Below are positions 42,802 to 48,189 of a stretch of 64,000 nucleotides of DNA, piece after piece. Numbering within the stretch: position 1 is the first letter of the stretch; each line of letters opens with the position of its first letter. Both the position numbers and the translations under genes were made by a program. The DNA lies in assembly GCF_001311845.1 (NCBI RefSeq), contig NZ_BBCC01000012.1:1-64000 (forward strand), in the 5' to 3' direction. A model generated the notes under the pieces. It was not told where the DNA came from, made no database searches, and saw only the letters and a list, made by a program, of their open reading frames with translations. The stretch is from Desulfosarcina cetonica JCM 12296. Lineage in GTDB: Bacteria > Desulfobacterota > Desulfobacteria > Desulfobacterales > Desulfosarcinaceae.

Positions 42802-43371
42802 TTAACGGAAAAAGTTCTCGATATACATATAGAACGTTATTTCAGAGACATTGAACGCATCCCCCGGCTCGTCGGTGTTGTGAAAAATCACCTGCAGGTC
42901 GGGAAGATCGTTTAGCAACGCCGTGTATACGTCACGATCAATCGGGCAAGAGGTATCCGAGCGTCGAATCACCAGATATTTTCCTTGACGATGTCCATGG
43001 AACCACTTCAGCTGCGCATTCAAGGCCTCGTCATCATCACGTGTAAAATGGTCTGGAATATCCTTTTCTCCCCAGTACAGGTTCATGTAGCCAAAAATCG
43101 ATCGTTTGATTTCATTGACCTTATTGACCGCTGCAATACCGCTTTCCAGAAACTTGTCATCCGGTGCTGGCATCCGGTGGGATCCAAACAGGGTCGCATT
43201 TTGCAGGTTAAACCGCGCCTGTCGCCGATTCAGCGCAGCATGAATGATCTCGATACCGGTATCGCGCTTGACGGGCAACTCGATGGCGCCTGGATATTCC
43301 TCCAGATGCAACCGCTCTCGATTGGTCTCCAGCCACGCCGAATTTACCGCGAGCAGCACCAACCAACCCAA
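42802..43371 (-). CDS. unrecognised conserved-looking protein or C-terminal part of the protease
   Basis: 189 residues from a TTG start (GAGG six bases before). Not a family I recognise. It begins hydrophobic (GWLVLLAVNSAWLE), then has an alpha/beta look (ELPVKRDTGIEIIHAALNRR, GKYLVIRRSD, LPDLQVIFHNTDE) and ends in YMYIENFFR. If one G were restored in the GGGGG run at 43405-43409, the trypsin frame would read on through GALSYVRRGVEDIL into this ORF, making one ~500-residue chain. Given how often single G/C bases are missing in this window, the fused form is at least as likely. It ends 15 bases before the MoxR gene. Confidence 0.6.
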   Translation of the reverse strand: MGWLVLLAVNSAWLETNRERLHLEEYPGAIELPVKRDTGIEIIHAALNRRQARFNLQNATLFGSHRMPAPDDKFLESGIAAVNKVNEIKRSIFGYMNLYWGEKDIPDHFTRDDDEALNAQLKWFHGHRQGKYLVIRRSDTSCPIDRDVYTALLNDLPDLQVIFHNTDEPGDAFNVSEITFYMYIENFFR

Positions 43372-43400
43372 AATATCCTCAACACCCCGACGAACGTAGC

Positions 43401-44306
43401 TTAAAGCCCCCTCACCGGCATTGTTTTTTCAAGCGCCTTGATTGCTGATTCCTTTGCCAGGCTGACCAGCATCAGGGCATCCGTAGTTTTCAATTTAACG
43501 AGCGCAGCTGAAATAGCTGCTGGACGTTTCGCATCAACGCCCTCCTTTTCAAGGAATTCCTTCTGGAAGCCATTAACCAATTCTGTTAGCCCCGGCCCGT
43601 CAAGCGTTTCAGCGATCTTCGCTTCAACCTGGACTTTCAGATCGCCAGGAACGCTTACACCGATTTCAGTGTACCAGGTTGGATGTTTCTGGTGATACGC
43701 TTCCTGCAACGCCTCAAGATCATCAAATGCGCTCAATAAGGTTGCGGCAGTCACCCCGCCGCCCCCAAGCATCGAATTTTTATCGTCGGTGAAATTGATC
43801 ATCCCACAAACGCGTTTGGTTTCCATGTTAAGCACTGGCGAGCCGCTCATCCCGCCACGGATGTTGTCCATTTTAACTTTCAACATAGGGGGCTTATCAT
43901 CCGAGTATCCCTTGCATTCGAAAGTTGCCGGCTCAGCATGTTGTGCTTCTTTGGGATAACCGAATGTTGATAGCCTATCGTACGTAAGACACGCCCTTCC
44001 TAAAAGAACGCATGGGGGGTGTGGTTCAGGCATGGGATGGCATTGCAAAAGCGCAACATCCTCATCCGGCATCCATTTATCCGGTAAGACCGTTGCTGTT
44101 GAAAAATCATCGTTATCCTGCCAACGAACCTTGATGGTGCCCTTTGGATCACCGTAAAAATCATTTGTCTTTCGATTACCGACAACATGCGCACAGGTGA
44201 CAATAAGGCCAGGGACGACAAAAAAACCGGTACCGACGGCCTGCGGAGAGATCAATTTGACGACACATGCATGCATGAGATCAATTACAGGATGATCCAT
44301 CGACAT
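43401..44306 (-). CDS. trypsin-like serine protease
   Basis: 301 residues. S1-type peptidase domain over the first ~200: catalytic His in VTCAHVVG (~39), Asp in DEDVALLQC (~81), Ser in GGMSGSPVLN (~153). No signal peptide, so cytoplasmic. The C-terminal ~100 residues are helical (VKVQVEAKIAETLDGPGLTELV...) and may be an adaptor. It follows the Trypco1 gene by four bases. In conflict systems such proteases are thought to process a partner or target after sensing; that role here is inferred. Confidence 0.92.
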   Translation of the reverse strand: MSMDHPVIDLMHACVVKLISPQAVGTGFFVVPGLIVTCAHVVGNRKTNDFYGDPKGTIKVRWQDNDDFSTATVLPDKWMPDEDVALLQCHPMPEPHPPCVLLGRACLTYDRLSTFGYPKEAQHAEPATFECKGYSDDKPPMLKVKMDNIRGGMSGSPVLNMETKRVCGMINFTDDKNSMLGGGGVTAATLLSAFDDLEALQEAYHQKHPTWYTEIGVSVPGDLKVQVEAKIAETLDGPGLTELVNGFQKEFLEKEGVDAKRPAAISAALVKLKTTDALMLVSLAKESAIKALEKTMPVRGL

Positions 44307-45038: not shown

Positions 45039-45885
45039 ATGAATGGTTTTCTCAACTGGTGGCAGCATCTGCCGGAACATATGGATCCGGTAATTTTTCA
45101 GATCGGCAGCTTCCGGCTGCAGTATTACGGCCTCATGTATATTGTGGCTTTTGCCTTCACCTACGGACTGGCCGCCTACCGGTTGAAGCACGAGGATCGT
45201 TTTTCCATCGACATCGAACAGCTTCAGGGATTGATTACCGCCTTGATCCTGGGACTGATCATCGGTGCGCGCATCGGGTACGTGATCTTCTACAACTTCT
45301 CATACTACCTGCAGCACCCGCTGGAAATCATCCTGCCGTTTCAATTCTCCGGCGGGTTCCATTTCACGGGAATATCGGGCATGTCCTACCATGGCGGATT
45401 GATCGGCGTGGTGATCGCGGCGCTCATTTTCGTACGCAAGAACAAGCTGTCGTTTCTCGACATGGCCGATCTGATCGTCCCCTGCATTCCGCTGGGCTAT
45501 ACCTTCGGCCGGTTGGGTAATTTCATCAATGGTGAGCTCTACGGACGGGTGACCACCCATGCCATCGGCATGTTCTTCCCCCTGCGCCCGGGCCTGGACG
45601 ACGCCACCCCTCGCAGCTCTATGAGGCCTTTTTCGAGGGCATCGTCCTTTTTATCATCCTGTGGAGCATCAAGGGGCGCGTCAAAACCCGTGGCGCCATG
45701 CTGGCCCTCTACCTCATGGGCTACGGGATCGCACGCTTTTTCATCGAATATGCCCGGCAACCCGACGCCCAGCTGGGATTCGTGTTCCTCTCCTTTTCCA
45801 TGGGCCAGATGTTGTGCATGGCATGGTGCTGGCTGGCGGGGGGCTGCTGGTCCTTCTGAAAAAAAGACCCGACGCCGGCGCTTAA
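45039..45885 (+). CDS. lgt: prolipoprotein diacylglyceryl transferase (two frameshifts)
   Basis: Inner-membrane enzyme that transfers diacylglycerol to lipoprotein lipobox Cys, ~280 residues. Visible: LQYYGLMYIVAFAFTYGL, GARIGYVIFYN, GISGMSYHGGLIGVV (catalytic-region HGG), and GRLGNFINGELYGRVT (Lgt signature). Downstream the frame is lost near 45605, probably one unit of a GCCACCCCTC direct repeat deleted from the PRHPSQLYEA motif. It is lost again near 45822, where one C is missing before MVLAGGGLLVLLKKRP. True stop TAA at 45883. AAGGAG precedes the ATG. Confidence 0.95.
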
Positions 45886-45910
45886 GAGTAGTAATAGGGA
45901 ACTGCTGTTA

Positions 45911-46063
45911 GTGAACCGGGAACTCAAGATTGTCGTCTCCAGTGGGTATTCCTTCAATGGCCAATTGTCGACGGCGCTGGCCGACGGTGCTGCCGGGTTC
46001 ATCCCCAAGCCATTCAGTGCGCTGGAGATGCTCAAAGCGGTCAGAGAAGTGCTGGACCGGTGA
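45911..46063 (+). pseudogene. C-terminal fragment of a response-regulator receiver domain
   Basis: A 50-codon frame reads IVVSSGYSFNGQLSTAL ... GAAGFIPKPFSALEMLKAVREVLDR, the last third of a CheY-like receiver domain including the conserved SS/T switch and KPF lysine. The phospho-acceptor Asp half is absent, so it is a remnant. It lies 25 bases past lgt. Confidence 0.7.
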
Positions 46064-46762: not shown

Positions 46763-48189
46763 ATGGGGCCATCCCTAAAAATCCTGTCGCTGCTGTGGCT
46801 GGTCAACCTGGCGCCGCCGATTGCTTCACTCGTGCTGCGGGAGCGTTTCCGCACGCCCGTGGATGGGGGCTGCCGGCTAAAAGATGGCCGGCGGCTTTTG
46901 GGAGATCATAAAACCCTTCGCGGGGTTTTGGCCGGTATCACCACCGGCGGGCTGATGGGATGGCTGCTGGGCATGCCGCTTGGCATCGGCCTGAGCTGCG
47001 GTTTCCTCAGCATGGCCGGCGACTTGTTGACCAGCTTCGTGAAACGCCGCCTGGGAAAGCCCAGCGGTGCGGTGGTCGCCGGCCTGGACCAACTGCCCGA
47101 GGGGGCGCTACCGCTGCTGGTGCTGGTCCCTTATGCCCGCTTGGGTGTGGCGTCGTATGTCGGTCTGCTTCTGCTGTTTGGTGTGGGCGCCTATGTGGGT
47201 TCGTTTCTTTTTACCTGGATTTCACTCAATCGCACGGGCCGGCGCTACCGCCGCAATTTGCCCCTGACCGGCAGGCTACGCGAATGGCGAGCCTGTGACA
47301 CGGCCTACCACCCCCTGCATCCGGTAATCAATGTCGATCGGAACATCTATTACCAGCTATTGATGAAAACGGCCTTCCGGTTGACATGGCTGTATGGGCG
47401 AGGCCGGAAAAACGCTCTGTCCATCCGGCTGAACACGGTAACCTTTCATTTTGATGATCTGCCGGCCGCCTTTGACGGCTATACGATCCTGCTTCTCACC
47501 GATTTGCACCTGGACGGGCTGGCCGGTCTCGATCAGGCGATCATCTCCCTGGTCGCGCCGCTCAGCGTGGATTTGTGCCTATTCGGCGGCGACTACCGGG
47601 CCAAGCTGTCCGGTCCCTACTCCAAAGTGCTCATTCGCATGCGCCGTCTGCTGCATGCCATCGACACCCGAGACGGCTGTTATGCCGTACTGGGCAATCA
47701 CGACTGCATCGGCATGATCCCGCCGCTGGAAAAGCGGGGGCTCCGTTTTTTGGTCAACGATGCGGTTTCCCTGGCCCGGGGGGAAGACCACCTCTGGCTG
47801 GTGGGCATCGATGACCCCGCCTACTACCAGGCCCACGATCTGCGCATCGCCTTTGAAGATGTCCCCGCCGGGGCCTTCACCATCCTTTTGGCCCACTCCC
47901 CGGATGTCTATGACGAGGCCGCCGCCTATGGCGCCAGGCTCTACCTGTGCGGCCACACCCACGCCGGGCAGGTTCAGCTTCCGCGAATCGGGCCGGTGGT
48001 CACCCATTCCCGCGCCCCCCGAGAATACACCAAGGGCAATGGCAATTCGGCCGTATGCAGGGCTACACCAGCACCGGGGCCGGTGTTTCCGGTGTGCCCG
48101 TGCGCTTCGGTACCCTGGGCGAAGTGGTCCTGCTGCGCTTGAAGCGGGACGCCCCGCCGTCTCCAACCAAACCGTTCCCGACGCCTTGA
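46763..48189 (+). CDS. fusion of CDP-archaeol-synthase-like (CarS/DUF46) and metallophosphoesterase domains (one frameshift)
   Basis: About 475 residues. Residues 1-165 form a polytopic membrane domain with LLGDHKTLRGVLAGI, SMAGDLLTSFVKRRLGKPSG and GLDQLPEGALP, the CarS-A signature of CTP-dependent archaetidyl/CDP-lipid synthases. Residues ~215-460 are a YaeI-like calcineurin phosphoesterase: LLTDLHLDGL, GGDY, VLGNHDC, LAHSPD and CGHTHAGQ. One G is missing near 48035 (EYTKG-QWQFGRMQGYTSTG) and the true stop is TGA 48187. A phospholipid-headgroup task for both halves is plausible inference. Confidence 0.85.

Follow-up and report, generated by a model that had tools for sequence, protein, structure and literature searches.

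A CarS-like membrane domain fused to a calcineurin-type phosphoesterase in Desulfosarcina cetonica: a candidate bifunctional enzyme of bacterial lipid metabolism

The draft genome of Desulfosarcina cetonica JCM 12296 encodes a protein in which a CarS-like membrane domain is fused to a calcineurin-type phosphoesterase. The gene lies on a stretch of 64,000 nucleotides of contig NZ_BBCC01000012.1, referred to below as the window. The fusion recurs elsewhere in the phylum and forms one clade, and the related short CarS genes that stand alone are genetically tied to phosphoesterases of their own. At a rough probability of 40%, the preferred reading of these observations is that the protein would be a bifunctional inner-membrane enzyme, uniting a CDP-lipid synthase and a phosphatase that act on one special phospholipid route. 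Judged from sequence, the pairing of CarS with a phosphoesterase, whether as a fusion or as neighbouring genes, may reflect a step of bacterial membrane-lipid metabolism that has yet to be described.

Domain architecture of the fusion protein

The gene and its parts occupy the following positions in the window:

46763–48142, + strand: CarS–phosphoesterase fusion as a single open frame, read as 459 aa, of which the final ~35 are out of frame
46763–47242, + strand: CarS-like membrane domain (Pfam residues 31–140 = 46853–47182), with the motifs P-D, DG..LG.HKT.RG, GD...SF.KRR and DQ..E
47243–47476, + strand: Arg-rich linker preceding the phosphoesterase, conserved in alignment (R.RE), with a likely amphipathic segment
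47477–48034, + strand: in-frame part of the calcineurin-like phosphoesterase (Pfam residues 241–401 = 47483–47965), with the motifs DLH, GGD.R, GNHD, HS and GHTH
48016–48189, + strand: C-terminal end of the phosphoesterase as placed by its relatives, in a different frame (tblastn with the L067 protein, open frame to the stop, alignment)

Both domains are recognized above the Pfam cut-offs, PF01864 (CarS-like) over residues 31–140 with 41.4 bits against a cut-off of 22 (E = 2e-10) and PF00149 (Metallophos) over residues 241–401 with 40.1 bits against 21.5 (E = 7e-10). The first-pass annotation of this DNA had proposed precisely such a fused pair, and a domain search for the two bears it out: each of the 14 fusion proteins aligned matches both families at E ≤ 0.001. 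Nor does the N-terminal region match a different membrane family over a cut-off, as both CTP_transf_1, which is of the same superfamily as CarS, and LapA_dom fall under their own Pfam cut-offs on this part of the window protein, and the CdsA family PF01148 reaches 12.2 bits against a cut-off of 24. Among NCBIfam models, the 459-aa ORF is best matched by CDP-2,3-bis-(O-geranylgeranyl)-sn-glycerol synthase (NF003114), at 70.4 bits and short of the equivalog cut-off of 148. YaeI (60.5 bits) and LpxG (59.6–60 bits) are likewise significant yet under their equivalog cut-offs, 188 and 350, respectively. Structure prediction from the single sequence gave a mean pLDDT of 42.

A fusion was called in the phylum genomes where a strong CarS-profile match lay in an open frame of at least 446 aa, and the 23 fusions considered here are those of 22 phylum genomes together with that of G001, a one-contig genome of the same genus. 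The CarS motifs are intact in all 23, as are DxH, GNHD, HS and GHTH of the phosphoesterase and R.RE of the linker. GGD.R was found by pattern in 20, the other three reading GGDIR by eye. Within the linker, R171, R173, E174 and C178 are invariant in 14 aligned sequences. This retention bears on the idea that the CarS domain is a membrane anchor or lipid sensor only, leaving the phosphoesterase as the working part. Relatives of the phosphoesterase do occur without CarS; however, an anchor or sensor sits poorly with CarS motifs that are kept in every fusion and are common to the solved archaeal enzyme, and with a CarS that is also kept as a free gene adjoining a PHP gene, and we consider the idea improbable.

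Simple hydropathy analysis of 14 fusions gives the N-terminal domain two to four hydrophobic segments, the last of which is followed by an Arg-rich stretch in most of the 14; the solved CarS enzyme is described as having five helices (PMC9385802). The position of the Arg-rich stretch suggests that the phosphoesterase domain is cytosolic, and this stretch in conjunction with the hydropathy pattern would place both active sites on the cytosolic face.

Frame break at the 3′ end

Aligned to the window by tblastn, the G001 ortholog (L067) follows one frame to about 48040 and then another over 48016–48153, a second-frame segment that is 74% identical to the L067 protein over 46 aa. The stop of this second frame lies at 48189. 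The extent of 46763–48189 first assigned to the gene is correct in its end point, which belongs to the other frame, but not as a single open frame, which ends at 48142. The break is explained most simply, and probably correctly, by a fault in sequencing or assembly, because intact copies of the fusion exist elsewhere and similar breaks occur in other genes of the window. A trypsin-like gene (42805–44300) requires two frames to match its G001 counterpart, and an Lgt gene (45039–45911) loses similarity to its counterpart past about residue 183. Given such breaks in neighbouring genes, frame breaks in this draft (558 contigs, 86.8% completeness) should not be taken for pseudogenes without checking. 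A fragmented draft that contains frame breaks might also invite the view that the fusion is itself an artefact, either a chimeric assembly or a chance pair of domain matches. Yet the same fusion is present in the one-contig genomes G001 and G426 and in 20 further genomes, so that this view deserves practically no weight; a chimeric assembly in particular is rejected by the ortholog in G001.

Distribution and phylogeny

The fusion is present in 22 of 395 sampled genomes of the phylum, both halves being seen in each, and this distribution, its single clade and the G001 ortholog establish that it is real. The window protein is 76% identical to that ortholog across the CarS domain and 82% across the phosphoesterase. 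A PF01864 search of 60 relatives recovered the fusion in 2 of 13 members of the genus (G000 and G001) and in none of the 47 genomes beyond it. Among 297 phylum genomes, a full-length match was found in 14, the window's own among them and the rest at 42–52% identity. A one-protein scan of genome contigs returned remote phosphoesterases only (7 loci, 28–31% identity). Short, unfused CarS genes occur in 14 of the 395 phylum genomes, and no genome carries both a short CarS and a fusion. Two genomes, G407 and G445, possess a partial CarS fragment besides the fusion, that of G445 lying at a contig end. In G407 (L129) the second partial fragment sits just 5′ of the fusion in another frame, and may have arisen by duplication of part of the gene or by misassembly.

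Phylogenetic analysis unites the fusions in one clade (support 100/100), which is retained when three plasmid-borne CarS are added; the CarS tree excludes L141, which escaped the motif pattern. A constraint grouping the plasmid CarS with the fusions is not rejected (p-AU 0.187), and the plasmid link is therefore not counted as a third origin of its own. Since the pair in the window is placed among fusions of other families, and the fusion is missing from most of the genomes sampled in its genus and order, the tree suggests that the window fusion was gained horizontally. The fork that supports such a gain receives 96/86 in the first tree and 81/83 in the tree with plasmid CarS.

Searches further afield located CarS, but not the fusion. 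Of 161 plasmid records matched by the fusion, none was covered over more than 80% of the query, and three hold CarS. Three further genomes of named records gave CdsA-level matches to the CarS profile and nothing stronger. At E 1e-12, the profile matched 0 of 395 genomes in the phylum of G450 (uncultured Rhodobacteraceae), a search run without a positive control. The control genomes of Thermus composti and Deinobacterium chartae do match CarS, at least one over the cut-off. CarS-like genes in bacteria are already known, as are both single domains. The CarS–phosphoesterase fusion was not found in a literature search that combined "CDP-archaeol synthase" with "metallophosphoesterase" or "phosphoesterase", most subscription journals being outside its scope.

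Unfused CarS genes and their partners

The short CarS is a protein of ~166 aa, and in 14 of 14 genomes a PHP-type phosphoesterase gene lies 3′ of it on the same strand, at ~135 bases or less in 13 and at 1.45 kb in G284. These 14 genomes represent six families, with eight genomes in one family, and are therefore not independent. At E below 1e-69, this PHP subfamily is found in all 14 short-CarS genomes, in 0 of 23 fusion genomes and in 0 of 23 hand-picked other genomes, the best match in the latter two sets being 9e-14. Pfam analysis of two of the PHP proteins placed PHP_C over the cut-off in both, whereas the match to the PHP domain stayed under its own. Enzymes of the PHP class are not known to be related in fold to those of the calcineurin type.

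A third arrangement is seen on two proteobacterial plasmids, one from Methylobacterium nodulans and one from Bosea sp. F3-2, where a gene annotated "CDP-archaeol synthase" adjoins a separate, convergent "metallophosphoesterase" gene whose product is 40–42% identical to the C-terminal part of the fusion, the second half of the linker included. Around the two pairs (L172, L174) lie GroEL, ChaB, phosphoribosyltransferase and Prs genes in Bosea and Mg-transporting ATPase and DUF302 genes in M. nodulans, a setting that looks like a stress-gene island.

The two partners also occur apart. On a Bradyrhizobium plasmid, no CarS lies within 15 kb of the phosphoesterase gene, and a Variovorax plasmid carries CarS with neither phosphoesterase type within 8 kb. 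Family f88 has the phosphoesterase subfamily without CarS: G155 and G280 show a CdsA-level match only to the CarS profile, and G257 has the phosphoesterase only and no CarS match in the 297-genome search. At three f88 loci (L058, L059, L060), the same phosphoesterase type is accompanied by a segment resembling the end of the linker, and another N-terminus replaces CarS.

A second CarS type, ~200 aa long, was found among the 60 relatives in G015, G016 and G042, with a match under the cut-off in G038. A CDP-alcohol phosphotransferase-like gene lies less than 1 kb from it in five of the six loci fetched out of nine candidates (L068, L069, L070, L139 and L140; Pfam was applied to one), and no partner gene was found for the sixth, L141. 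The loci L068–L070 also encode a large protein that by eye resembles PEP synthase/pyruvate phosphate dikinase. With one query protein, no CDP-alcohol phosphotransferase was found near the 14 short CarS genes or the nine scanned fusion loci.

Taken as one family of arrangements, CarS and phosphoesterase may constitute a lipid module of bacteria that is distinct from CdsA and has yet to be described. Calcineurin-type and PHP enzymes would be interchangeable in this module, which comes as a fusion, a tandem or a convergent pair and would make or control a CDP-lipid or phospholipid new to bacteria. We put this generalization forward tentatively, as less probable than the reading given above for the fusion protein.

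Gene neighbourhoods

The neighbours of the fusion are weakly conserved, with a sigma-factor cluster at five loci and a radical-SAM-like cluster, recognized by eye, at four. In three f118 genomes (L046, 4726–6120; L048, from 7770; L049, from 7669), a sigma-70-type gene, identified by Pfam on the L046 gene only, lies directly 5′ of the fusion and is co-oriented with it, which might suggest expression under stress or in stationary phase. The radical-SAM-like gene is found close to the fusion and divergent from it in three genomes of f72 and one of f102 (L051, from 8256; L052, from 7778; L056, 3910–5223; L057, from 7933). A sodium/calcium exchanger gene, identified by Pfam on the L056 gene only, is found directly 5′ of the fusion in two f72 genomes (L056, 5370–6353; L057, from 6850).

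Lipid pathways of the fusion hosts

Pathway tests covered 15 of the 23 fusion genomes. A strong CdsA is present in all 15. In two of them, a match counted as over the CdsA cut-off overlaps the fusion, one being read through stops, which tells against setting the fusion apart from the CdsA family. Because the 15 tested genomes have a normal CdsA, the fusion is an extra enzyme beside it; replacement of CdsA is rejected, and a role as the bulk CDP-diacylglycerol synthase is unlikely.

LpxI is likewise present in 15 of 15, and replacement of LpxH/LpxI is rejected on this ground. The same result weighs on the wider proposal that the fusion substitutes for LpxH/LpxG in lipid A synthesis. All 14 aligned members do match the LpxG model weakly, but the window protein attains about 60 bits where 350 are required, and we regard such a role as very improbable.

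GGGP synthase (PF01884) is found over its cut-off in 0 of the 15, with weak partial matches in two. This finding, together with a score less than half of the equivalog cut-off, stands against a true CDP-archaeol synthase in a host that makes archaeal-type isoprenoid ether lipids. For all that the archaeal enzyme is the best NCBIfam match, we hold this explanation to be a shade less credible even than the lipid A one. Archaeal lipid synthesis in the fusion hosts is unlikely, and an archaeal lipid pathway is rejected as the context of the fusion. The first-pass annotation suggested an uncommon intermediate, or a step of turnover, in lipid metabolism; this idea is plausible, given that CarS and phosphoesterase are linked elsewhere and that CdsA is present in all 15, but its archaeal-lipid connection fails. 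CarS, the textbook archaeal lipid step, is thus recurrent in bacteria that have an ordinary CdsA and lack GGGP synthase over the cut-off, and a CarS match alone is no ground for inferring archaeal-type lipids.

All 60 genomes searched for CDP-alcohol phosphotransferases have genes for them. The mean number of matches per genome is 4.8 in fusion genomes and 5.2 in short-CarS genomes versus 3.7 in the others (Mann–Whitney p = 0.003 and 0.001, respectively, not corrected for kinship).

Proposed function

The preferred reading, a synthase and a phosphatase on one route, can be laid out as a sequence of steps. The CarS domain would take CMP from CTP and attach it to a lipid phosphate of the membrane at the cytosolic face, yielding a CDP-lipid and PPi. 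A separately encoded CDP-alcohol phosphotransferase would then exchange CMP for a phosphorylated head group. The phosphoesterase domain, presumably on the same membrane face as the CarS site, would remove the head-group phosphate, a step comparable to that of PGP phosphatase on the way to phosphatidylglycerol; the PHP enzyme would take this part in relatives. The fusion would thereby carry out the opening and the closing step of a dedicated phospholipid route, whose product is probably neither archaeal nor part of the bulk CDP-diacylglycerol pool. As phosphatidylglycerol synthesis exemplifies, such routes require a phosphatase if the head group arrives in phosphorylated form. Either type of phosphatase could serve at that step, which would account for the apparent interchange of calcineurin-type and PHP enzymes.

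The domains and their motifs, the single clade, the linkage of CarS to phosphoesterases, the absence of genomes with both a short CarS and a fusion, the CDP-alcohol phosphotransferase-like gene beside the ~200-aa CarS type, the presence of CdsA, the slightly larger number of CDP-alcohol phosphotransferase matches and the Arg-rich stretch all support this route. It is weakened by the lack of a CDP-alcohol phosphotransferase near the scanned loci, by the cases of phosphoesterase without CarS and CarS without phosphoesterase, and by the closest named relatives of the phosphoesterase, LpxG and YaeI, which by analogy suggest cleavage of a diphosphate or diester over a monoester.

The last point leads to the main rival, a synthase–hydrolase pair in which a CDP-lipid made by the CarS domain is cleaved at its diphosphate by the phosphoesterase, returning lipid phosphate and CMP, so that the protein would control the CDP-lipid level. 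LpxG, the relative in question, is described as splitting a nucleotide-lipid, UDP-diacylglucosamine (PMC4807358). The hydropathy pattern, by placing both sites of the fusion on one face, would also suit such a pair. On the other hand, the two activities would run a futile cycle unless regulated, and Pfam revealed no regulatory domain in the window fusion protein. Moreover, enzymes like the PHP partners are not known to act as nucleotide-lipid diphosphatases. A synthase–hydrolase pair is accordingly possible, though somewhat less probable than the biosynthetic route. The fusion and the apparent PHP exchange name a reaction partner for CarS, and the substrate is thereby testable.

Relation to known systems

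CarS enzymes are reported to combine CTP with a lipid phosphate to give CDP-archaeol (PMC4244643, PMC9385802), and the solved CarS comes from Aeropyrum pernix (PMC9385802). A profile built from 24 CarS domains (14 fusion and 10 unfused) matches this archaeal CDP-archaeol synthase (PDB 5GUF) at E = 4.8e-21 and a CdsA structure at only 0.056. Common to the fusion CarS and 5GUF are the motifs P-D, DG, G..KT, GD..SF.KRR and DQ, whereas at the third residue past DQ the fusions retain a conserved E and 5GUF reads DQLD. The window protein further differs from 5GUF in being fused to a phosphoesterase and in falling under the equivalog cut-off for CDP-archaeol synthase, and the fusion hosts differ in that 15 of 15 tested lack GGGP synthase over the cut-off. 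Bacterial CdsA and CarS are described as one superfamily with one reaction type (PMC9385802); the window protein is nonetheless set apart from CdsA by its score under the PF01148 cut-off and by the separate CdsA in 15 of 15 hosts tested.

Searched against PDB sequences, the phosphoesterase profile gave no match at E 0.001. With LpxG and YaeI (NF033458, NF008460), the fusion phosphoesterase has in common DxH, GD, GNHD and GHxH, the LpxG motifs being those given in PMC4807358, but it is carried on a CarS domain, and the window protein scores far under both equivalog cut-offs. A close counterpart of the whole arrangement is the plasmid pair of M. nodulans and Bosea sp. F3-2, in which the same two parts stand side by side, but as separate convergent genes.
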